Positions 42,502-57,029 of a stretch of 64,000 nucleotides of DNA are shown piece by piece; within the stretch, counting starts at the first letter, position 1; each line of letters opens with the position of its first letter. Below the pieces are notes generated by a model. The model did not search any database. It saw only the letters and a program-made list of their open reading frames with translations, and was not told the DNA's origin. Source of the stretch: an uncultured Campylobacterales bacterium (GTDB lineage Bacteria; Campylobacterota; Campylobacteria; Campylobacterales; Arcobacteraceae); assembly GCA_947494995.1 (NCBI GenBank), contig CANLWY010000001.1, positions 620,001 through 684,000 on the forward strand. The letters are read 5' to 3'. Both the position numbers and the translations under genes were made by a program.

Positions 42502-42545
42502 TGAAACAGGGATATTAGTTTTTATACTAATTATCTACTGTTTCA
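42502..42545. terminator. Hairpin between DUF445 and a convergent micro-gene
   Basis: Outer arms TGAAACAG / CTGTTTCA enclose a second pair (ATTAGT / ACTAAT). It lies 20 bases after the DUF445 stop and overlaps the end of the 29-codon gene on the other strand, so it can end both transcripts. Confidence 0.65.
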
Positions 42546-42632
42546 TTTAAAATTATAGATATAAAACCCTATTAATGTTCCAACAAAAACTAAACCAATA
42601 AAAACAAATAATACAATATCAATAATAGCCAT
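42543..42632 (-). CDS. Micro-protein, 29 residues, single membrane helix
   Basis: Hand-translated: it begins MAIIDIVLFVFIGLVF and ends in FYIYNFK. Almost the whole length is one membrane helix. AGAGGA sits 8 bases before the ATG, a good site for so short a frame. The size and build are like the two other micro-proteins next to the Mrp operon. I do not recognise a family. Confidence 0.5.
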   Translation of the reverse strand: MAIIDIVLFVFIGLVFVGTLIGFYIYNFK

Positions 42633-42807
42633 TTACAAATCCTCTTTATAAAATCAGTTTTCTTAACAATAAGTTAAGTCCAGAATTATAATTATAGTTT
42701 GTCAATTTCACAAGGTATATTCTCTTGACAAAAACTAAACAGTTTTTCTTTAGTATAGATATTTATTTAAAAATAGATTAAAGCAAAATTCCTAAAAAAC
42801 AAAAAAA

Positions 42808-42860
42808 TATCAATAAAGTGTCAATAAATATAACATATTGAAATTGACAATATATTGATA
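42808..42860 (+). promoter_or_regulatory. Candidate operator A before the regulator transcript
   Basis: Layout: TATCAA-N5-TGTCAA-N19-TTGACA-N5-TTGATA. The right half is the reverse complement of the left half, and repeat centres within each half are 11 bases apart, as OmpR-type dimers require. Site B repeats it with the same spacing; over 57 bases from the left end only about six differ. Confidence 0.65.
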
Positions 42861-42947
42861 TATTATAAATTCAAAAAGTCATTTTTTGGAAAATGACTAT
42901 CATATGGGATATTTAGTTAGAATAAGTTTATAAGACAAAGGGTGTGT

Positions 42948-43022
42948 ATGATACTTTTTAGAATATTAATTCCAATAATTGTAATTTTTTTTATCACCTT
43001 AGGTACTCTAGCTTTTGCTTAA
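42948..43022 (+). CDS. Micro-protein, 24 residues, single membrane helix
   Basis: Hand-translated: starts MILFRILIPIIVIFF and ends TLAFA. It is a single hydrophobic helix with one Arg near the N-terminus. ACAAAGGG lies about 5 bases upstream of the ATG. It is the first frame after operator A and ends 28 bases before the regulator gene, so it would be the leader gene of that transcript. Confidence 0.5.
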   Translation: MILFRILIPIIVIFFITLGTLAFA

Positions 43023-43050
43023 ATTAAGTCACAAAAAAGAGGTAGAGTAA

Positions 43051-43755
43051 TTGAATATTAAAAAAGTACTTTTAATAGAAGATGATATTGAACTTCAAAC
43101 ACTTATAAGTGACTTTTTAAAAGCTTATAACTATGTATGTACTACTTATTCAGAACCATTGGAAGCATTAAAAGAGTTTCATGAAAATCATTTAAAGTAT
43201 GCTATTGTGATTTTAGATCTAGGACTTCCTAAAATGGATGGTTTTGATCTATTTAAAAAGTTAAAAGAGATTAAAAATATACCAATAATAATATCAACTG
43301 CAAGAAATGACATAGGTAATAAAATCTATGGTTTTGAATTGGGTGCTGATGATTATTTGTCAAAACCTTATGATCCAAGAGAATTGGTGCTAAGAGTTGA
43401 TGCTATTTTAAAACGATATGAAGATGACAATACAAATGTACTTCAAAGTAATAAAGAACTCAAAGTTGGTGAGTTAATAATCGATCTAGATAGAAAGAAA
43501 GTCTTTATTGAGAATCAAGAAATAGAGTTTACAAAAATTGAATCAGAAATATTTTTTATGTTTATATCTAATATTAATAAGGTAGTTTCAAGGGAAGATA
43601 TTGTCAATCAAACCTCTTTAAAAAAAGATGCTAAAAATAGAACAATTGATATGCATATTAGTAATATACGGTTTAAAATAAATGATGATCCAAAAAAATC
43701 TACATATATAAAGTCAGCATGGGGAATAGGGTATAAATTTATTAGTGAGAATTAA
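43051..43755 (+). CDS. OmpR-family response regulator without adjacent kinase
   Basis: A 234-residue regulator with a TTG start, AGAGGTAG upstream. Receiver: LLIEDDIEL, VILDLGLPKMDG (phospho-Asp), TAR and KPYDPRE. The winged-helix part has FTKIESEIFFMFISNINKVVSREDIV and WGIGYKF. No kinase gene is within the window near it. It lies between operators A and B and upstream of the Mrp operon on the same strand, so it is the obvious candidate to bind both (inference). Confidence 0.92.
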   Translation: MNIKKVLLIEDDIELQTLISDFLKAYNYVCTTYSEPLEALKEFHENHLKYAIVILDLGLPKMDGFDLFKKLKEIKNIPIIISTARNDIGNKIYGFELGADDYLSKPYDPRELVLRVDAILKRYEDDNTNVLQSNKELKVGELIIDLDRKKVFIENQEIEFTKIESEIFFMFISNINKVVSREDIVNQTSLKKDAKNRTIDMHISNIRFKINDDPKKSTYIKSAWGIGYKFISEN

Positions 43756-43859
43756 GTACTCACTTTGCTGATTTTATCACTTCTCTTATTTTTTTAGGAG
43801 TGTTTTTTATACAGTTTCAATTTAAATGCTAAAAATACATATAGTACCAATAATACGGG

Positions 43860-43895
43860 GTTAGATCTGACTTTTAGAAATAATCTAACTTTTTA
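43860..43895 (+). terminator. Terminator of the regulator gene
   Basis: Arms GTTAGAT / ATCTAAC followed by TTTTT, about 100 bases after the regulator stop and just before operator B. The regulator and Mrp transcripts are therefore likely separate. Confidence 0.7.
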
Positions 43896-43906
43896 AAACA
43901 AAAGAG

Positions 43907-43959
43907 TGTCAAGAAAATGTCAATAAATATTACATATTAAAATTGACAAAATATTGATA
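43907..43959 (+). promoter_or_regulatory. Candidate operator B before the Mrp transcript
   Basis: Layout: TGTCAA-N5-TGTCAA-N19-TTGACA-N5-TTGATA, matching site A in spacing and in most spacer bases. It ends 30 bases before the next micro-gene ATG, so the site must overlap or abut the promoter. Confidence 0.68.
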
Positions 43960-43989
43960 TATTTAAAAATCAGTTTTAAAGGATAAATT

Positions 43990-44067
43990 ATGGAACTTGT
44001 TAAAAAATTGGCTTTCTTCGTAGTTTCTAGCCTTGTATTAATTGGGATAATAAGCTATTTTGCTTAA
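43990..44067 (+). CDS. Micro-protein, 25 residues, single membrane helix, leader of the Mrp operon
   Basis: Hand-translated: starts MELVKKLAFFVVSSL and ends IISYFA. AAAGGA lies 6 bases before the ATG. It sits 22 bases before mrpE. The helix and the final Phe-Ala resemble the 24-residue protein that follows operator A. It may be a small subunit of the antiporter, a leader peptide, or chance; the spacing and binding site favour a real gene. Confidence 0.55.
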   Translation: MELVKKLAFFVVSSLVLIGIISYFA

Positions 44068-44089
44068 AATGGAGGAGTAATAAATTATA

Positions 44090-44572
44090 ATGACAACTAA
44101 GTATTATTTTATTTTAGCTTGCATTCTAGTCCTATTTTGGATGTTGTTATCTGGCCATACCAGTGTACTTTTGCTAACTTTAGGTTTTGCATCAATAGTA
44201 CTGGTTACTTGGTTAGTTAGTCGTATGGATCGTAACGACAACGCTCCAGTTCGTGTGTTGTTTTCCATGAAGTTTTTTTCTTATCTTGGATGGCTTATTT
44301 GGCAGGTTATTATTACTAACATTGATGTTGCTAAACGTATCTGGAATCCATCATTGCCAATTAAACCAGCTTCTCGTAAGATTAAAGTAAAAATCAAAGA
44401 TCCCTTAATCAAAACAATTTATGCTAACTCTATTACATTAACACCTGGTACAGTTACTACTGAAGTAGGTGAAGATTATTTTATTGTTCATGCATTAAAC
44501 TCTGAGGGTCTTGATGAATTAGAAGAAGGTGATATGGAAAGACGTCTTCTTTGTCTGGAGGAAAGACAATGA
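44090..44572 (+). CDS. mrpE: Na+/H+ antiporter subunit MrpE
   Basis: A 160-residue membrane protein with helices in the first 90 residues and a soluble end. KTIYANSITLTPGTVTTEVGEDYFIVHAL is the family signature. Of eight Arg codons six are CGT, while the rest of the window uses AGA almost exclusively; this hints at transfer. GGAGGAGTAA lies upstream of the ATG, though somewhat far. It overlaps mrpF by 4 bases. Confidence 0.9.
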   Translation: MTTKYYFILACILVLFWMLLSGHTSVLLLTLGFASIVLVTWLVSRMDRNDNAPVRVLFSMKFFSYLGWLIWQVIITNIDVAKRIWNPSLPIKPASRKIKVKIKDPLIKTIYANSITLTPGTVTTEVGEDYFIVHALNSEGLDELEEGDMERRLLCLEERQ

Positions 44573-44835
44573 TTGCTGCTGCTATAATTGCCTTGCTAAT
44601 TACATTAGCTCTTACCCTAACTCGTGCCTTTTTAGGGCCAAATATTTATGACCAGATATTAGCTGTTAACTCTTTTGGTACAAAAACAGTTTTATTAATT
44701 GTTGTAGGTGGTCATGCCTTAGGTTGGTTTAGTTATGTTGATATTGCATTAATGTATGCACTTGTTAACTTTGTTGGAACTCTTGCTGTTATGAGGTTTT
44801 TTGAACAATATAACCCACAAGGAGAACAATCATGA
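44569..44835 (+). CDS. mrpF: Na+/H+ antiporter subunit MrpF
   Basis: The ATG at 44569 follows GGAGGAAAGACA and overlaps the mrpE stop as ATGA. The 88-residue protein has three helices with RAFLGPNIYDQILAVNSFGTKTVLLI, typical of MrpF. In the Mrp complex it packs beside E and G. Confidence 0.9.
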   Translation: MIAAAIIALLITLALTLTRAFLGPNIYDQILAVNSFGTKTVLLIVVGGHALGWFSYVDIALMYALVNFVGTLAVMRFFEQYNPQGEQS

Positions 44836-45191
44836 TTATTGGTTTAATAAGTGATATTTGTTTACTTCTTGGAGGTATTTTTACCTTAACTGGTGCAATT
44901 GGATTGTTAAGACTTCCTAATTTTTACACAAGATTACATGCTGCGAGTGTTACTGAGTCATTAGCTGCTCCACTACTAATCATTGGTGTAATGTTAGATA
45001 CTGGTTTTACCCTAGATTCTGCTAAGTTAGTACTTATAATCTTAATCATGGTAGTTGCTAACCCAACAATTACTCATGCATTATGTCGTGCTGCTGCTCA
45101 TGGTGGAGTTCATCCAGAGATGGAAACAAATGACAGTAAAAAAAATCAATCACAAAGTGAAACAGAACTTTCAGCTAAGGAGTTAAAGTGA
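44832..45191 (+). CDS. mrpG: Na+/H+ antiporter subunit MrpG
   Basis: A 119-residue protein with three helices and the PhaG/MnhG motif GAIGLLRLPNFYTRLHAASVTESLAAPLLI. The C-terminal tail is charged and Ser/Gln-rich. It overlaps both neighbours by 4 bases (ATGA at the start, GTGA at the end). Confidence 0.92.
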   Translation: MIIGLISDICLLLGGIFTLTGAIGLLRLPNFYTRLHAASVTESLAAPLLIIGVMLDTGFTLDSAKLVLIILIMVVANPTITHALCRAAAHGGVHPEMETNDSKKNQSQSETELSAKELK

Positions 45192-46159
45192 TAGAGAATC
45201 TTCATTTAATTATTGATGTTTGTTTACTTGCTTTCTTAGTATTAATTGTTTTTGCAGCAATGAAAGTAACAAACTTATTTGTTGCTACTATGCTATTTGG
45301 TATTTTTAGTTTCGTTGCAGCCTTACTATTTTTAGATTTAGATGCTGTAGACGTTGCCTTTACAGAAGCAGCTGTTGGTGCTGGTTTTTCAACTGTACTT
45401 CTGTTAGCTGCTTTAAGACTTACTGGTGCAGTTGAAAATGCAAAACATAGGCATTCAACTTTAGGATTATTTATTGTAGTTCTTACAGGTGCCGCTTTAA
45501 TTTATGGTACAGCTGATTTCCCAAATATGGGAGATGCAAATGCACCTGTTCAATTACATCTTGCTCCTGAATTTATTCAATTAACACAAGAGAAAATTGA
45601 TATTCCAAATGTTGTAACGGCAGTTCTTGCAAGTTTTAGAGGATATGATACATTTGGTGAAACAGTGGTTATTTTTAGTGCCGGTGTTGCTGTATTATTA
45701 TTACTTGGAATGGGTCATGTAGAACCTAAGAATGAACCAGAACAAAATATGGTTTTATGGGTAGTAGTTAAACCATTTATTGCTTTAATTTTAATCTTTG
45801 GACTTTATGTACAGTTTCACGGTGACTTTGGTGCTGGAGGTGGTTTCCAAGCCGGAGTAATTTTTGCAAGTGGTATTATTTTATATAGTTTAGTTTTTGG
45901 AGAAGGTTATGCAAGGAAAGTTATTCCTTCAAGAATCTTACCAAGATTAGCTGCATTAGGTGTACTAATTTATGGTGTAACAGGATTGGCAAGTTTACTT
46001 TCAGACAAGCCATTCTTAGACTATAATGCCTTATCTTCAAATCCAATAGCTGGTCAACATATGGGTATTATCCTTGTTGAAGCAGGTGTTGGTTTAGCAG
46101 TATTTTCTACAGTATTACTAATCTTTTATTCTTTTTCTGGGGTGAATCACAATGAATGA
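45188..46159 (+). CDS. mrpB: Fused MrpA C-terminal (DUF4040) and MnhB-domain subunit
   Basis: A 323-residue protein, GTG start. The first part (about 1-110) is the DUF4040/MbhD-like segment that is usually the tail of MrpA (VAFTEAAVGAGFSTVLLLAALRL). The second part (about 190-320) is MnhB (GLYVQFHGDFGAGGGFQAGVIFASG). So the end of MrpA is here joined to MrpB and separated from the NuoL-like part. It overlaps mrpC by 8 bases. Confidence 0.85.
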   Translation: MIENLHLIIDVCLLAFLVLIVFAAMKVTNLFVATMLFGIFSFVAALLFLDLDAVDVAFTEAAVGAGFSTVLLLAALRLTGAVENAKHRHSTLGLFIVVLTGAALIYGTADFPNMGDANAPVQLHLAPEFIQLTQEKIDIPNVVTAVLASFRGYDTFGETVVIFSAGVAVLLLLGMGHVEPKNEPEQNMVLWVVVKPFIALILIFGLYVQFHGDFGAGGGFQAGVIFASGIILYSLVFGEGYARKVIPSRILPRLAALGVLIYGVTGLASLLSDKPFLDYNALSSNPIAGQHMGIILVEAGVGLAVFSTVLLIFYSFSGVNHNE

Positions 46160-46541
46160 GTTATTAGGACATTTTAATTACTGGATAGTAATTTTTCTAA
46201 TGATGATGGGATTATATATGGTAATTGCATCATCTAATTTGATTAAAAAACTGATTGGTCTTGGTGTTTTTCAAGCCTCGGTATTTATTTTGTATATTAC
46301 GTTCGGTAAGATAACAGAAGGTAGCCCTCCCATTATCACTGATAATGTTGATGTATATTCTAATCCTTTACCTCACGTACTTATACTTACAGCGATTGTT
46401 GTTGGTGTTGCGACTACATCTGTTGGTTTAGCATTAATTGTACGTATTAAAGAAGCTTATGGGAGCACTGATGAAGATGATATCCATGATATGGATGACA
46501 AAGATGACTTTAATATTAAAAACAACAGGAGTATAAATTGA
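46152..46541 (+). CDS. mrpC: Na+/H+ antiporter subunit MrpC (NuoK-like)
   Basis: A 129-residue protein with three helices, related to NuoK. LPHVLILTAIVVGVATTSVGLALIVRIKE is the MnhC signature. The C-terminal 25 residues are strongly acidic. The stop overlaps the TTG start of mrpD. Confidence 0.9.
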   Translation: MNELLGHFNYWIVIFLMMMGLYMVIASSNLIKKLIGLGVFQASVFILYITFGKITEGSPPIITDNVDVYSNPLPHVLILTAIVVGVATTSVGLALIVRIKEAYGSTDEDDIHDMDDKDDFNIKNNRSIN

Positions 46542-48019
46542 ATCTTATGACACATTTACCTGTTCTTGTTGTTGTTGCGCCACTGCTTGCAGCGGCATTA
46601 ATTGTAGTAATCAATAGTAGAAAAGCTGCTTGGTTAATTACTTTAATAACATCACTTTTTTGTTTTTATGCTTCTGTAAATATGTTACAGATGCTTCAAG
46701 ATGTTGCAGAACTTAGTTATAAACTTGGTGGCTGGGATGCACCACTTGGAATTGAGCTTAAGGTTGATGCTTTAACTGCATTAATGTTATTAATTCTTAC
46801 TGGTTCAGCTTCGCTAGTTAGTTTCTATGCTTTAAGAAGTGTTGAAAAAGAGATTGCTGATGGAAAACAAGTACTGTTTTATTCAGCTTTTCTTTTAGTA
46901 TTTGCAGGACTTATTGGTATTTCTATTACTGGCGATGCCTTTAATGTTTTCGTATTTTTAGAGATTTCTTCACTTTCTACTTACGCAATTATTAGTATGG
47001 GTAAAGATAGACGTGCTCTGCATGCTTCATACTCATACTTAATCATGGGTACAATTGGTGCGACATTTATCTTAATTGGTATTGCTTTTATGTATGTAAT
47101 GACAGGTACTTTAAATATGAGTGATTTAGCACAAAGACTACCAGCAGTTGCTGATACAAGTGCTATAAGAGCTGGATTTGCCTTTATTACAATTGGTGTT
47201 GGTATCAAAGCTGCTATGCTTCCACTTCACCAATGGTTACCTAATGCATATGCTTATAGTCCATCTGTAGTTTCTACATTCTTAGCAGCAACTGCAACTA
47301 AAGTAGCTGTTTATGTAATGATTAGATTCCAGTTAACTATTTTTGGTATTGAGTTTTCACTTCTTGAAATGCCATTTGATAAAATCTTAATGTTCTTAGG
47401 AACTTTAGGTATTTTAGGTGGTTCAATCTATGCTATCTTCCAAAGCAATGTAAAAAGAATGTTAGCATACTCAAGTATTGCTCAAATTGGTTATATCTTA
47501 TTGGCAATCGGGCTTGCAAGTCACGAAGGTTTTGTAGCTGCTTTATTACACATGTTTAACCACGCCTTAATTAAGGGTACTTTATTCATGGCACTTGGAA
47601 TTATTTTCTATAGATTTGCTACAACTGAACTGTCTTCAATGGCAGGTACTGGTAGAACTATGCCATTTACAATGGCTGCCTTTACAATTGGTGGTTTAAG
47701 TTTAATTGGTGTTCCAGGTACTGCAGGATTTGTTAGTAAATGGTATTTAGTTACTGCTTTACTTGAAGCATCTTTATGGCCAATTGCATTATTAATTCTT
47801 GTAGCTTCTATTCTTACAGTAATTTATGTGGGTAGAGTTATTGAGGTTGCTTACTTTAAACCTGCTCCAGAGGGAGTTGAGAGAAAATCTATGCCTACAT
47901 CAATGCTTGCAGCATTATGGATATTTGCAATAGCAAATATTTACTTTGGTTTAGATAGTGAAGTGAGTATGGGAGTATCTACACTTGCTGTAGATCAGTT
48001 AATAGGAGTGAGACCATGA
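46538..48019 (+). CDS. mrpD: Proton-translocating antiporter subunit MrpD (first of three)
   Basis: A 493-residue NuoM/N-like protein with about 14 helices. Key charged residues of the family are present: Glu in FVFLEISSLSTYAII (about 140), Lys in GVGIKAAMLPLHQWLPNAY (about 225), Lys in ATATKVAVYVM (about 255), and His in HMFNHALIKGTLF. TTG start with GGAG 6 bases upstream; an ATG 9 bases later is possible. Overlaps the next gene by 4 bases. Confidence 0.92.
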   Translation: MNLMTHLPVLVVVAPLLAAALIVVINSRKAAWLITLITSLFCFYASVNMLQMLQDVAELSYKLGGWDAPLGIELKVDALTALMLLILTGSASLVSFYALRSVEKEIADGKQVLFYSAFLLVFAGLIGISITGDAFNVFVFLEISSLSTYAIISMGKDRRALHASYSYLIMGTIGATFILIGIAFMYVMTGTLNMSDLAQRLPAVADTSAIRAGFAFITIGVGIKAAMLPLHQWLPNAYAYSPSVVSTFLAATATKVAVYVMIRFQLTIFGIEFSLLEMPFDKILMFLGTLGILGGSIYAIFQSNVKRMLAYSSIAQIGYILLAIGLASHEGFVAALLHMFNHALIKGTLFMALGIIFYRFATTELSSMAGTGRTMPFTMAAFTIGGLSLIGVPGTAGFVSKWYLVTALLEASLWPIALLILVASILTVIYVGRVIEVAYFKPAPEGVERKSMPTSMLAALWIFAIANIYFGLDSEVSMGVSTLAVDQLIGVRP

Positions 48020-49476
48020 GTATAGAAACACTTTATATTTTAATAATGGTAATACCACTTCTAACAGCAGTTGGTGTATTGGTATGCCGAAAAAATGAAA
48101 ATGTTCGTGAAACTGTAACAATTATAGGAGGAGTGTCTCTATTTATTGCAGTTGTTAATTTAGCACTTAGCTATGACTTTGAACAAGCAGTAAAGTTTAC
48201 ACTGCTTGAGCCATTCCCAGGTCTAGCAATTGCTTTTGAACTTGAACCTTTAGGTTTAATATTCACATTAGTTGCAGGATTCTTATGGCCAGTTACGTCA
48301 TTATATGCAATTGGGTATATGAGAGGGCACCATGAGAAGAATCAAACAAGATTCTATTTTGCCTTTGCAATATCAATTTTTGCAACTATGGCATTAGCTT
48401 TATCAGCTAACTTATTTACTTTATTTATTGCTTATGAGTTGTTGACACTTTTCACATTGCCATTAGTTACTCATGCAGGAACAGATGCCGCAAGACGTGC
48501 AGGTTGGACTTACTTAGGTATTTTAATGACTACGTCAATTGGATTTTTACTTTTAGCAATTATCTGGACTTGGTCATTAACAGGAACTTTAGAGTTTACT
48601 GTAGGTGGTATTCTTGAAGGAAAAGCAGAACCAGCTATTTTAGGTGGTTTATTACTACTATTTGTTTTTGGTACAGGAAAAGCTGCGATTATGCCATTTC
48701 ACAGATGGTTGCCAGCGGCAATGGTAGCACCAACACCTGTTTCATCTTTACTACACGCAGTTGCGGTAGTTAAAGCTGGTGTTTTTACTATTTTAAAAGT
48801 TTCTGTTTATGTTTTTGGTATTGATTTAATTGCTTCACTTGATGCTGCTTACTGGCTTTCACTGTTAGCTGGATTTACAATTGTTAGTGCATCAATTATT
48901 GCTATGACAAAAGATAACTTAAAAGCAAGGTTAGCTTACTCAACTATTAGTCAGTTATCTTATATCATTTTAGCGGCAATGCTTGGTGTTGCTACTGGTG
49001 TATTTGCAGGTAGTTTACATATTGCAATGCACGCATTTGCAAAGATTACTTTATTCTTCTGTGCAGGTGCGATTTTAGTTGCTGCTCATAAATCAAAAGT
49101 TTCTGAGTTAAATGGTATAGGTCGTGCTATGCCAATTACTATGATTGCATTCTTATTAGCTGCACTTTCAATTGTTGGTTTACCACCACTTGGAGGAAGC
49201 TGGAGTAAATGGTTATTGTTGCAAGCGACTATGGAAGCACATAATATGGTATTACTAATAGTATTATTAGTAAGTTCTTTATTGAACTTATTCTATTTAG
49301 TTGAAATACCAATTAGAGGATTCTTTGCTAAACCAGTTGATCCTGCATATAACAATGGAATCAAAGAAGCACCAACATTTAGTTTAATTGCAATTTTAAT
49401 AACAACAACGGGTTGTCTGGCACTATTTTTCTTAGTTAACCCAGCTTGGAATCTTGTTGAGAAGGTATTACCATGA
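48016..49476 (+). CDS. Proton-translocating antiporter subunit, NuoL/M-type (second of three)
   Basis: A 486-residue protein of the same superfamily but clearly a distinct paralogue. It has Glu in FIAYELLTLFTLPL, Lys in GTGKAAIMPFHRWLPAAMVAPTPVSSLLHAVAVVKAGVF, and HIAMHAFAKITLFFCAG. It could stand in for the NuoL-like part of MrpA. ATGA overlaps on both ends. Confidence 0.9.
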   Translation: MSIETLYILIMVIPLLTAVGVLVCRKNENVRETVTIIGGVSLFIAVVNLALSYDFEQAVKFTLLEPFPGLAIAFELEPLGLIFTLVAGFLWPVTSLYAIGYMRGHHEKNQTRFYFAFAISIFATMALALSANLFTLFIAYELLTLFTLPLVTHAGTDAARRAGWTYLGILMTTSIGFLLLAIIWTWSLTGTLEFTVGGILEGKAEPAILGGLLLLFVFGTGKAAIMPFHRWLPAAMVAPTPVSSLLHAVAVVKAGVFTILKVSVYVFGIDLIASLDAAYWLSLLAGFTIVSASIIAMTKDNLKARLAYSTISQLSYIILAAMLGVATGVFAGSLHIAMHAFAKITLFFCAGAILVAAHKSKVSELNGIGRAMPITMIAFLLAALSIVGLPPLGGSWSKWLLLQATMEAHNMVLLIVLLVSSLLNLFYLVEIPIRGFFAKPVDPAYNNGIKEAPTFSLIAILITTTGCLALFFLVNPAWNLVEKVLP

Positions 49477-49796
49477 ATGATAATAAACAATACATATTCG
49501 ATAACCCTAAAAATGTAAAGCTATTAGTAAGAGCTCTTTACGCTTGTTGTTTGATTTTATTTGCTTTGGATTTAGTTATTCATAGACATATTTATCATCC
49601 GTGGGAAGAGTTTACAGGTTTTTATGCCTTTTATGGTTGTATTGCGTGTGTAGTACTTGTATTACTTGCACGTGAAATGAGAAAAGTAGTTATGCGTGAT
49701 GAAGATTATTATGACATCAAAGATGAAAATAATGTACAGAATGTAGAAGAAAAAAAAGAAGATTTAGTAAAAACAGGAGAAAAAGTTGATGGATAG
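49473..49796 (+). CDS. Small two-helix membrane protein of the Mrp-like operon
   Basis: A 107-residue protein. Two helices lie at about 18-36 and 48-66, the second followed by REMRKVVMRDEDYYD and an acidic, hydrophilic tail. It is not one of the seven classical Mrp subunits. Its overlaps with both neighbours (4 and 8 bases) argue that it is a true part of the complex or its assembly. Confidence 0.75.
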   Translation: MNDNKQYIFDNPKNVKLLVRALYACCLILFALDLVIHRHIYHPWEEFTGFYAFYGCIACVVLVLLAREMRKVVMRDEDYYDIKDENNVQNVEEKKEDLVKTGEKVDG

Positions 49797-51483
49797 TTTT
49801 TTACCAATATTACCATTTCTTATTGCAGCAATTCTAACACTTTTTACTCGTGGTAGCTTACGTGCTACTATTATGATAGTAGCACCTATTGTTGCAGCGT
49901 ATGGTATTTATAATCTTGAAGTTGGACATACTTATACTGCTATATTGCTTGGTTATGAATTAACACCAATTAGAATTGATAAACTTTCAATGCTATTTGG
50001 ATATTTATTTTGTGTAGCAGCTCTATTAGGTAATATTTATGCTTTATATCATAAAGATACAATTCAGCATTTTGCTGCACAAGCGTACGCTGCAAGTGCA
50101 GTAGGGGCTGTTTTTGCTGGAGATATGTTAACTTTATTTATTTATTGGGAGTTAATGGCTTTAACATCGTCAGTATTAATTTTTGCTAGAAGAAGTGAAG
50201 CATCATTACATGCTGGTATTAGATATTTAGCAATGCAGATTATTTCTGGTTTATTATTATTAGCCGGAATTATCGTATATTACAACTCAGTTGGAAACCT
50301 TGACTTTAATCATATTGGATTAGATTCTCCTGGTGCTTGGTTATTCTTCATAGCATTTGGTATCAAAAGTGCTTTCCCTTTCTTACACAACTGGTTAACA
50401 GATGCATATCCAGAAGCAACAGAAAGTGGTACAGTATTTTTAAGTTCATTTACAACTAAAGTTGCAGTTTATGCATTAGCAAGATCATTTGCTGGTGAAG
50501 AAATACTGATTTATATTGGTGCTACTATGGCATTCTTCCCAATATATTATGCGGTAATTGAAAATGACTTAAGAAGAGTACTTACATATAGTCTTATCAA
50601 CCAGATTGGATTTATGGTTGTAGGTATTGGTATTGGTACAGAATTAGCTCTTAATGGTGCAGTAGCCCATGCCTTTGCAGACGTAATCTTTAAAGGATTA
50701 CTGATGATGACTATGGGAGCAGTTCTGTGGTCAACGGGAGAAATGCGTGGATCTGAGCTTGGAAACTTATATAAAAAGATGCCAAAAACAGCATGGCTAT
50801 GTATAGTTGGAGCTGCATCAATTTCTGCCTTCCCACTATTTAGTGGATTTGTAACTAAGTCTATTATTGTAAGTGCTGTATTAGCAGAAGGGTACTATGG
50901 AGTTTGGTTAATCTTATTATTTGCAGCTGCTGGTGTATTCCACCATGCTGGTATTAAAATTCCATTCTTCGCATTCTTTGCACATGAATCAAAATTTGTT
51001 AAAACTGCAAAAGAAGCTCCAAAAAATATGCTTTGGGCAATGAGTTTAAGTGCAGTACTTTGTATTGCTATTGGTTGTTTCCCTCAACAGTTCTATTCAC
51101 TATTACCTTGGGAAATGGATTACACAGTATATGATACAACACACGTATTAACTCAATTACAACTGCTGTTCTTCTCAGCACTTGCATTTGTTTGGTTAAA
51201 ACTAGCTCATATCTATCCACCAGAGTTGAAATCAGTTAATCTTGATGCTGAGTGGGTATATAGAAAACTATTCCCTAAAGCAATTTATGGAGTTGTTAAT
51301 GTATGGGGTTCATTCTATGGATCAGTTCAAGTACAATCAGGACAACTATTACAAACAACAAAAATTGGAATTGTTAGATTCTTTGGTGCAGATGGATTCT
51401 TATCTAATTTCCGTTCTTTAGGTGGAATGGTAATGTGGGTTGCCGTGATTTTGTCTACATCATTATTCTTATATTATCTATAA
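49789..51483 (+). CDS. Proton-translocating antiporter subunit, NuoL/MrpD-type (third of three)
   Basis: A 564-residue protein. It has Glu in FIYWELMALTSSV (about 115), Lys in FGIKSAFPFLHNWLTDAYPEATESGTVFLSSFTTKVAVYALAR, and HAFADVIFKGLLMM. About 80 extra residues at the end form a lateral, partly soluble extension with a last helix. I start at ATG 49789 (GGAG 9 bases upstream); a TTG directly before it is equally possible. Last gene of the operon. Confidence 0.9.
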   Translation: MDSFLPILPFLIAAILTLFTRGSLRATIMIVAPIVAAYGIYNLEVGHTYTAILLGYELTPIRIDKLSMLFGYLFCVAALLGNIYALYHKDTIQHFAAQAYAASAVGAVFAGDMLTLFIYWELMALTSSVLIFARRSEASLHAGIRYLAMQIISGLLLLAGIIVYYNSVGNLDFNHIGLDSPGAWLFFIAFGIKSAFPFLHNWLTDAYPEATESGTVFLSSFTTKVAVYALARSFAGEEILIYIGATMAFFPIYYAVIENDLRRVLTYSLINQIGFMVVGIGIGTELALNGAVAHAFADVIFKGLLMMTMGAVLWSTGEMRGSELGNLYKKMPKTAWLCIVGAASISAFPLFSGFVTKSIIVSAVLAEGYYGVWLILLFAAAGVFHHAGIKIPFFAFFAHESKFVKTAKEAPKNMLWAMSLSAVLCIAIGCFPQQFYSLLPWEMDYTVYDTTHVLTQLQLLFFSALAFVWLKLAHIYPPELKSVNLDAEWVYRKLFPKAIYGVVNVWGSFYGSVQVQSGQLLQTTKIGIVRFFGADGFLSNFRSLGGMVMWVAVILSTSLFLYYL

Positions 51484-51502
51484 TTTTTAGAAAAAATCAT
51501 AT

Positions 51503-51539
51503 AAGATCATAACTTTAATTTATTTAGAGTTATGATCTT
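51503..51539 (+). terminator. Hairpin ending the Mrp operon
   Basis: A 12-bp perfect stem (AAGATCATAACT / AGTTATGATCTT), loop of 13, starting 20 bases after the last stop. The following sequence is A/T-rich but not a clean T tract. Confidence 0.7.
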
Positions 51540-51573
51540 TAACTTAATTTAAAAATCATCATCTAAACTAATA

Positions 51574-51626
51574 TGTCAATAAATTGTAAAGAAAAGTTAC
51601 CTTGTGAACTTGACAATTTATAAATA
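51574..51626 (+). promoter_or_regulatory. Candidate operator C, degenerate third copy
   Basis: Layout: TGTCAA-N5-TGTAAA-N19-TTGACA-N5-TAAATA. The N5 and N19 distances equal those of sites A and B, but the outer and inner repeats carry changes and the N19 differs in sequence. It lies after the Mrp terminator and before a hairpin, with no protein gene for almost 200 bases. Confidence 0.45.
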
Positions 51627-51642
51627 CAATTATGATCTTAAT

Positions 51643-51700
51643 AAAGTGTCTCCTAGTACAAAATATCAATTAATTTTGTTTATCTTGTGCTAGGAGCTTT
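51643..51700 (+). ncRNA. Possible small RNA hairpin downstream of operator C
   Basis: A 12-bp arm CTCCTAGTACAA pairs with TTGTGCTAGGAG (one G-U), and AAAG / CTTT extends it after a bulge. The loop is 23 bases. It starts 16 bases after operator C. No T tract follows directly (a weaker one comes near 51715), so a terminated small RNA is a guess. The rest of 51484-51818 holds only the operon hairpin and A/T-rich sequence. Confidence 0.35.
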
Positions 51701-51818
51701 AACTAATAAAAATCCTATTTTACTTTTTACCTTTTTACTACAAAACAAATGTTAATATGTCATCCATAATTTAAATATTGAACTAATTGTATTTAAAAGT
51801 ACTTTTATAGGATAAAAA

Positions 51819-52136
51819 ATGGAAAAACAAGAACAAATAGAATTACTAGTATTATTGGATACTACTCCTTTAGAAGATAAAGAGAAGTTTGAAAAACATC
51901 TTAAAAAAGAGGGGTTTAAAATTGTTGAAGAGGAAGACTTTGTATATACAGCAAAATCATCAACTACACTTTTTGCTACAAAAGCTTATATACTAGAAGT
52001 CTTTAAAGTAGGACTTCAAAAAGTAAACTTTGATGGTGAAGCAAATCTAATTTTTCTTTTAAATGAAACTCCTTATCCCGCTTATTATTATGATAAAAAT
52101 ACAAAAGAGTTTGAATTAACAAAAGAAGATGAATAG
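51819..52136 (+). CDS. Hypothetical protein upstream of mfd
   Basis: Not recognised. A 105-residue soluble acidic protein (QIELLVLLDTTPLEDKEKFEKHLKKEGFKIVEEEDFVYTAKS) that seems an alpha/beta ferredoxin-like small domain. The TAG stop shares a base with the mfd GTG, so it is translated together with mfd. ATAGGATAAAAA precedes the ATG. Confidence 0.7.
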   Translation: MEKQEQIELLVLLDTTPLEDKEKFEKHLKKEGFKIVEEEDFVYTAKSSTTLFATKAYILEVFKVGLQKVNFDGEANLIFLLNETPYPAYYYDKNTKEFELTKEDE

Positions 52137-56465: not shown

Positions 56466-57029
56466 ATGAAAACAAGTAAAGTATTAGCAGTAGTTGCTAT
56501 GACAGGACTTTTAAGTACAGGTCTTTATGCAGTTTGCTATGGACCAGGACAAGGTCAGGGGCAAGGTATGATGAAACAACAAGGAATGATGAATCAACAA
56601 GGAATGATGAAACGACAAGGAATGATGGGGCAGTCTTGTGGAATGCAAGGTAAAAATATGATGATGAAAAAAGGAATGCATAATAAAGGTAAAAATGGAC
56701 CTTTATCTCTTTTAAGAAAATTAAATTTAACACCTGAACAACAAACGCAAATTGCAAAAATTAGACAAGATATTTTCTCAAAAAAAGTTAGACCAGATGT
56801 AGCTTTTTCAAAAGAGGGCTTTGATAAAGCAAAATTCATTGAAATAATGAAACAAAAAAGAGAGAATATGATAGAATCTAAAGCAGAAATGATTGATAGA
56901 GTTTATAAAGTATTAACACCAGAACAAAAAGAACAGTTTAAAGTGTTGATGGATTTAAAAAGAGAAAGAATGCAATCAATGATGAATAGAAGGATGAATT
57001 TTGATAAAAATTGCTATGGTAGAAGATGA
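56466..57029 (+). CDS. Periplasmic CpxP/Spy/ZraP-like protein, methionine-rich
   Basis: A 187-residue protein with a signal peptide (VVAMTGLLSTGLYA, cleavage near 22). A Met/Gln-rich stretch follows (about 30-70, QGMM repeats plus one Cys), then a helical core with two LTPEQ motifs (LNLTPEQQTQIAKI near 91, LTPEQKEQFK near 149), as in CpxP/Spy chaperones. Met-rich tails often bind Cu(I) or other soft metals. AAAGGATAAATA precedes the ATG. It overlaps the regulator start by 29 bases. Confidence 0.82.
   Translation: MKTSKVLAVVAMTGLLSTGLYAVCYGPGQGQGQGMMKQQGMMNQQGMMKRQGMMGQSCGMQGKNMMMKKGMHNKGKNGPLSLLRKLNLTPEQQTQIAKIRQDIFSKKVRPDVAFSKEGFDKAKFIEIMKQKRENMIESKAEMIDRVYKVLTPEQKEQFKVLMDLKRERMQSMMNRRMNFDKNCYGRR
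56562..56633 (+). repeat. Four 18-bp tandem repeats coding the Met-rich segment
   Basis: Four units of CAAGGAATGATGAA-type sequence, each encoding Gln-Gly-Met-Met plus two residues. The third and fourth units vary at the end. Copy number could vary by slippage without breaking the frame. Confidence 0.75.

Follow-up and report, generated by a model that had tools for sequence, protein, structure and literature searches.

A direction-bearing operator-promoter element linked to a response regulator clade and probably controlling Na+/H+ antiporter and microprotein genes in Arcobacteraceae

Results

Association of the element with a clade of response regulators

We analyzed a stretch of 64,000 nucleotides (hereafter the window; positions 620,001 to 684,000 of contig CANLWY010000001.1, assembly GCA_947494995.1) from an uncultured Campylobacterales bacterium of the Arcobacteraceae, in which several copies of a 57-bp DNA element flank a response regulator gene at position 43051 and an mrp-type Na+/H+ antiporter operon. 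Sequence comparison leads us to consider it likely that this element is the oriented operator-promoter of a clade of OmpR/PhoB-family response regulators, which would control Na+/H+ antiporters and hydrophobic microproteins in these marine bacteria. The original prediction, made from the window alone, had seen the element as two facing direct repeats, TGTCAA-N5-TGTCAA-N19-TTGACA-N5-TTGATA, by which the regulator controls its own gene, the antiporter operon and a third target. The arrangement described here amounts to a concrete, testable regulon of Na+ and pH homeostasis for the Arcobacteraceae.

The regulator clade, cut at ≥299 bits, was found in 29 of 104 genomes of the family. Elements with up to two mismatches were present in 28 of these 29 genomes and in none of the 75 others (Fisher p 1.6e-24). 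The 29th clade genome carries two copies with three mismatches, and a sequence-only model of the element (R1) applied at 1e-6 gave 29/29 versus 1/75 genomes. The predicted tie between the element and the family of the 43051 regulator was borne out by these counts. The association also holds inside genera of mixed presence (in genus g2 two of 31 genomes have either feature, and both have both), which lowers the risk that mere ancestry explains the link.

Anatomy of the element

A search pattern based on the anatomy of the element matched with zero to three mismatches in 39 of the 104 genomes, and 63 copies remained after weak matches had been dropped. Their consensus reads TGTCAAGAAAn TGTCAAGAAA TAT..CMTT....AAATTKACA N9 TATAAT. 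Several columns that the query did not demand are conserved (G7 in 73%, A8-A10 in 83-87%, T29 in 100% and A55 in 97% of the copies, together with G/T18 and C27), so the query did not itself create the shape of the element. The direct repeat of TGTCAAGAAAn with its 11-bp period is present in the 63 copies, in agreement with the two direct half-sites about 10-11 bp apart that are expected of an OmpR/PhoB-type site. This part of the original prediction stood, but the design of four half-sites facing each other is confined to the copies at mrp operons and orphan regulators. TTGAYA had to be rejected as a general fourth half-site (mean 3.35 of 6 matches over the 63 copies); it is complete only in the four mrp and orphan-regulator copies of this genome and of its relative G059 and in the mrp copy of Sulfurospirillum sp. 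UBA2217, where it overlaps the -10 region. Its conserved TA is part of TATAAT, which is the predicted -10 box. Conservation extends to the middle of the element, which is asymmetric, and TA...T is common to the copies nine bases after TTGACA. A symmetric block was not borne out, and the element rather has the build of an oriented promoter.

Downstream of TATAAT no other -10-like box is present, and the next start codon typically follows 22-53 nt further on, with a ribosome-binding site. At a spacing of 17 bp, the -35 would be a weak TTnnnA at positions 29-34, so that the direct repeat would lie directly upstream of it, in the position of an activator. The inverted half-site TTKACA stands between -35 and -10, 9 nt before TATAAT, and varies from TTGACA to TTTACA and TTTGCA. 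The alignment defines an exact putative promoter-operator, unusual in having an inverted half-site between its two promoter boxes.

Two other explanations of the symmetry have to be weighed at this point. The elements might be ordinary constitutive or divergent promoters, the symmetry reflecting two facing promoters with TTGACA as -35. TTGACA is indeed the sigma-70 -35 consensus, and copies 1 and 2 of the window also show weak -10-like ends when reversed. However, TTGACA and TATAAT are separated by 9 rather than 16-18 nt, and a search for a -10-like box 17 nt from TTGACA found none. Facing promoters would also leave unexplained the direct repeat, the tie to one regulator clade and the variation of TTGACA to TTTACA and TTTGCA, and we regard them as highly improbable. 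A palindrome that acts as RNA hairpin or small mobile repeat instead of a protein site would fit the inverted symmetry and the close likeness of copies 1 and 2, which are 86% alike over 78 nt. Yet the pairing of the stem is not maintained (columns 15 and 39 are unpaired in 34 of 63 copies, and paired cells stay below those of shuffles); the RNA stem was rejected by these pair counts. In addition, the element precedes its own -10 box, the flanks differ between copies and the copies occupy promoter positions, which makes this explanation scarcely credible.

Copies in the window and targets in the genome

Allowing up to three mismatches, the complete four-site pattern gave five matches at three places of the window, two of the places being near-palindromes, and none in 100 dinucleotide shuffles. 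Genome-wide it occurred at five places, adding 198225 and 988992 on the same contig, and a reversed control pattern at none. Copy 2 (43907..43963, plus strand, -10 TATATT, R1 46.7 bits) shows all four half-sites as predicted at 43907-43959. Copy 1 (42808..42864, plus strand, -10 TATATT, R1 38.8 bits) is located where it had been placed (42808-42860), but opens with TATCAA instead of TGTCAA and continues TGTCAA/TTGACA/TTGATA. The likeness of the two copies, put at about 90% over 57 bases, was counted as 51/57. Copy 3 (51574..51630, plus strand, -10 TACAAT) had been taken as degenerate but equally spaced at 51574-51626. It reads TGTCAA/TGTAAA/TTGACA/TAAATA and keeps the spacing; it is weaker and lacks the fourth half-site, and the 63-copy profile confirms it as a genuine member (R1 46.6 bits). 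The count of three copies was incomplete, since a fourth lies on the minus strand. Its core TGTCAA-N19-TTGACA at 42700-42730 is best read as a 57-bp element at 42685..42741 with a degenerate first half-site TGTTTA and the -10 TATAAT (R1 31.4 bits).

At a threshold of E≤0.05, the R1 model found six sites in this genome, all of them at Na+/H+ antiporter genes, the regulator, tiny open reading frames (ORFs) or the RNA-like hairpin. Copies 1 and 2 precede a 24-residue ORF with the regulator gene and a 25-residue ORF with the mrp operon, respectively. Copy 3 lies 3' of this operon and copy 4 in front of a 29-residue ORF. The fifth site is located between a kinase gene and nhaA, and the sixth before a 25-residue ORF and the gene of an NhaC-like antiporter (PF03553/PF13726). 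The element-bearing antiporter genes were assigned by Pfam (NhaA PF06965, 502 bits; NhaC-like PF03553, 252 bits; MnhE PF01899, 109 bits), the NhaA identity resting on Pfam for one representative and on closely similar starts for the others. Downstream DNA was available for 61 copies: a hydrophobic ORF of 24-29 residues with a ribosome-binding site follows in 29 of them, and an NhaA gene in 22. The usual locus in relatives runs element-nhaA-regulator-kinase-element-microprotein, and in G033 an element lies directly 5' of the regulator gene. The antiporter operon had been predicted as a target, and ion antiporters are indeed found at the elements; besides Mrp, other loci of this genome supply NhaA and the NhaC-like antiporter. 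The idea of a closed ion-homeostasis circuit is well supported, but the circuit is wider than proposed and takes in three kinds of antiporter (NhaA, NhaC-like and Mrp) and two or more paralogous regulators.

Strong elements were also seen before the genes of a 179-residue protein (L045, G035:C76:27111-27165) and of a 226-residue protein (L151/L029), which are possible further regulon members; for L048, related to the latter, Pfam gave no match. At L038 4188-4244 (G036:C1:824187) a perfect element lies about 300 bp before an nhaA element, with no recognisable ORF behind it. In Poseidonibacter-type genomes (L157, L159, L165, L170) the genes of a Na+-dependent bicarbonate transporter (PF05982) and of a PII-like protein adjoin the nhaA-regulator-kinase locus.

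The 43051 regulator and the kinase-linked paralogue

The gene at 43051..43755 (plus strand, TTG start) encodes an OmpR/PhoB-family response regulator, as seen from its domains, alignment and tree. Both the receiver (PF00072, 84.8 bits) and the winged-helix domain (Trans_reg_C, PF00486, 62.3 bits) scored above cut-off, and in an alignment of 15 sequences E10-D11, the phospho-acceptor Asp D56 and K105 are invariant. The TTG start is shared with the regulator at L039:3699, and both have a conserved ribosome-binding site. The gene had been called an orphan, and no kinase gene adjoins it. However, it is not alone, as a kinase-linked paralogue next to nhaA is 64% identical and carries the same recognition helix. 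In the tree, the 43051 protein and its G059 partner (82% identical) are sisters (99/98) within the nhaA-linked clade.

Most clade genomes have the regulator gene next to a histidine kinase gene, normally together with nhaA, and such loci carry one element before nhaA and a second one behind the kinase gene. The kinases of this genome's nhaA locus (L036) and of L038, next to the regulator, carry HisKA and HATPase_c domains. The kinase matches the ArsS family NF038389 with 171 bits over 89-459 and does not reach the curated cut-off of 250. An AlphaFold model of the kinase (pLDDT 78, pTM 0.43) predicts a sensor region made up entirely of helices, compatible with a four-helix bundle. The top PDB matches of the model were histidine kinases, with alignments that covered mainly the catalytic half, and gave no clue to the signal.

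The prevalence of the kinase-linked regulator raises the alternative that it, or another factor, is the only protein to bind the elements, the 43051 gene being merely a target or a decaying paralogue. This genome has such a pair next to nhaA, with an element between kinase gene and nhaA. Against it, the 43051 protein has retained both the phospho-acceptor Asp and the recognition helix, is 82% identical to its G059 partner and travels with the mrp lineage in two families. We consider this alternative rather unlikely.

A lower-scoring group of regulators (about 60% identical) belongs to an operon encoding a DUF1924 protein, a dihaem cytochrome c, a cytochrome b561, the regulator and a kinase. 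Hand tabulation showed a weaker form of the element upstream of this operon in at least 23 of 48 loci. The recognition helix NRTIDMHISNIR is kept in the 43051 clade and in this cytochrome-linked sister clade and is absent from the unrelated regulator at 57001. Since both groups have this helix in common, recognition of the operator appears to be an inherited property of the regulator family. The sister regulator/kinase pair with its cytochrome operon was seen in several families of the order (L126-L129, L132, L133, L138, L140, L143).

The mrp lineage

The mrp operon (44090..51483, plus strand) encodes MnhE, MrpF, MnhG, an MnhB/MbhD-E fusion, an MnhC-like protein, three Proton_antipo_M subunits and one unknown small membrane protein. 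Close relatives of its MnhE were found in only three sampled genomes, namely this one, G059 (81%) and G331 (77%). The last belongs to another family of the order and matches a contig of Sulfurospirillum sp. UBA2217. The original prediction hinged on the element being present before homologous mrp operons that have the same regulator, and for this lineage (n=3) all three genomes have the element before mrp and a clade regulator beside it. In UBA2217, the element-mrp unit is divergent from the regulator and kinase genes, an element with microprotein lies behind the kinase gene and an orphan regulator ends the mrp operon. The lineage is 76-84% identical at the DNA level among the three genomes of two families, and its mrp genes have a G+C content of about 0.34 versus 0.25-0.30 in their neighbours. 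The patchy distribution and the slightly higher G+C content of the mrp genes suggest that mrp and its control element form a mobile cassette, possibly transferred horizontally. No plasmid match was found for the region.

A hairpin RNA candidate behind the mrp operon

The gene at 51819 was rejected as the third target. In G059 the same element and hairpin follow mrp, and an unrelated amino-acid permease gene comes next. Just 3' of the -10 box of copy 3, a hairpin RNA candidate (51637..51710, plus strand, z -6.6) is conserved in one relative (z -4.1). In this genome and in G059 it starts about 12-20 nt after the -10 box; the G059 hairpin is followed by a run of T, and the next genes differ between the two genomes. 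A third site as predicted at 51574 is genuine, but its target is probably a short structured RNA rather than the downstream gene. The hairpin could also act mainly as terminator. Rfam gave no relevant match for the hairpin at 51637, up to E 1.

Microproteins behind the elements

The tiny ORFs directly behind the elements had been missed by the original prediction. Family A is represented in the window by ORFs of 24 residues (MILFRILIPIIVIFFITLGTLAFA, 42948..43022, plus strand, profile E 6.8e-7) and of 25 residues (MELVKKLAFFVVSSLVLIGIISYFA, 43990..44067, plus strand, profile E 2.7e-9), both hydrophobic. Its consensus of 25 residues is MxFVRNLIIxVVVSFxxIGxISxSx. The pN/pS values range from 0.18 (pairs ≥80% identical) to 0.32 (60-80%), and the other two frames have no such deficit of amino-acid changes; by this measure family A is coding and under purifying selection. 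A profile search of the 104 genomes gave 28 matches in 24 genomes; each match directly follows an element, and each of these genomes has the regulator clade. As 17 of these sequences had seeded the profile, the new information is that matches away from elements are absent. A search of ten genomes at relaxed threshold gave no further convincing match, and none of six microproteins matched NCBIfam above cut-off. The G059 copy before the orphan regulator has a disrupted frame. Family A appears to be previously undescribed, and in these searches it was found only behind this element. Gene finders would miss hydrophobic proteins of 25 residues because they are too short, and with their strict linkage to a single regulator their function is open to direct testing. 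A second family, B (29 residues, MxIVDIVLFGFIGVVLIVSLVGFFIYNSK), occurs behind its own element in this genome (MAIIDIVLFVFIGLVFVGTLIGFYIYNFK, 42543..42632, minus strand, behind copy 4) and in two relatives (L044, L052).

By analogy with MgrB and with very small transporter subunits like KdpF, family A likely acts as feedback on the kinase or as accessory subunit of the antiporters. It is conceivable, although somewhat doubtful, that it constitutes a new class of ion-stress microproteins, which would be made only from promoters of this regulator and would join the kinase or the Na+/H+ antiporters in the membrane to set their activity. If true, one tiny module would couple sensing and transport and move between NhaA, NhaC-like and Mrp systems. 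Alternatively, the ORFs might encode type I toxin-like peptides that depolarise the membrane under salt stress, since their length of 24-29 residues, hydrophobicity and stress-type promoter resemble TisB/ShoB-like peptides. No antitoxin RNA was noticed, in the course of work that included no systematic search for one; the ORFs always follow this element, often next to the kinase gene, and family A has the conserved start MxF(L/V)RNL. We judge toxin-like peptides to be distinctly unlikely.

Discussion

From these arrangements we infer the following course of events. In most Arcobacteraceae with the clade, the regulator and an ArsS-like histidine kinase would form a two-component system, normally encoded with NhaA. 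The kinase may sense Na+, an alkaline pH or some related signal at the membrane and phosphorylate one or both regulators. A regulator dimer on the direct repeat TGTCAAGAAAn-TGTCAAGAAA, just 5' of a poor -35, would help RNA polymerase at TATAAT, and the inverted third half-site TTKACA may hold a second regulator molecule, tuning or limiting expression. The regulon would comprise NhaA and, in this genome, also the NhaC-like antiporter and Mrp; in the window it would include the regulator paralogue itself, single-pass membrane microproteins of 24-29 residues and the hairpin RNA candidate behind mrp. The 43051 protein would be a kinase-less paralogue of the nhaA-linked regulator, one that accompanies the mrp lineage and probably receives its phosphate from the kinase beside nhaA.

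Several observations weigh against an activated promoter of this regulator clade. The genomes are phylogenetically non-independent, and the co-occurrence counts are not independent trials. The clade cut was placed at a natural gap (299 vs 286 bits) after the scores had been seen. G060 lacks the regulator clade and yet has a strong element match at its cytochrome operon, for which only the sister regulator of that genome offers an explanation. In G071, which has the regulator, no element was detected at a distant mrp operon (MnhE 29% identical). TTKACA is placed where a bound protein could hinder the polymerase, and repression is possible at some sites. Finally, the two regulator paralogues of this genome are inseparable by sequence.

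In the collection of papers that was searched, we found no report of two-component control of nhaA or mrp in Arcobacter or Arcobacteraceae. NhaR of Escherichia coli is a LysR-type regulator and not a two-component response regulator, and we know of no operator common to NhaR and this element. NhaR is described as a dedicated regulator of the Na+/H+ antiporter gene nhaA (PMC6307784). Although the kinase described here matches the ArsS sensor kinase family, its score below cut-off means that it is not an ArsS equivalog. The pho box of PhoB consists of TGTCA-type half-sites in direct repeat with an 11-bp period and replaces the -35. In contrast, the repeat of the present element ends about 29 bp 5' of the -10 box and is followed by an inverted half-site; the 43051-type regulator scored 133 bits against the PhoB model, below the cut-off of 296.2.

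KdpF is a tiny membrane protein of about 29 residues encoded in a KdpE-regulated operon, and the microproteins are likened to it by size and operon setting only. KdpE itself resembles the regulator studied here as an OmpR/PhoB-family regulator of an ion transporter (kdpFABC), and according to the excerpted source its operator in E. coli has the same direct-repeat geometry, with two 6-bp direct repeats separated by 5 AT-rich bp (6-5-6) (PMC3264566). The KdpE system differs by its target, a K+ pump, and by its half-site TTTATA/TTTACA, and a conserved inverted third half-site is not described in that excerpt (PMC3264566). MgrB of E. coli is a tiny inner-membrane protein under control of PhoQ/PhoP that represses the kinase of the same system (PMC2789325). 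Similarly, the gene of a tiny hydrophobic protein with its own element adjoins the kinase gene here. MgrB differs in its length of 47 residues, and family A also precedes antiporter genes; a feedback role of family A would be one assigned by analogy.

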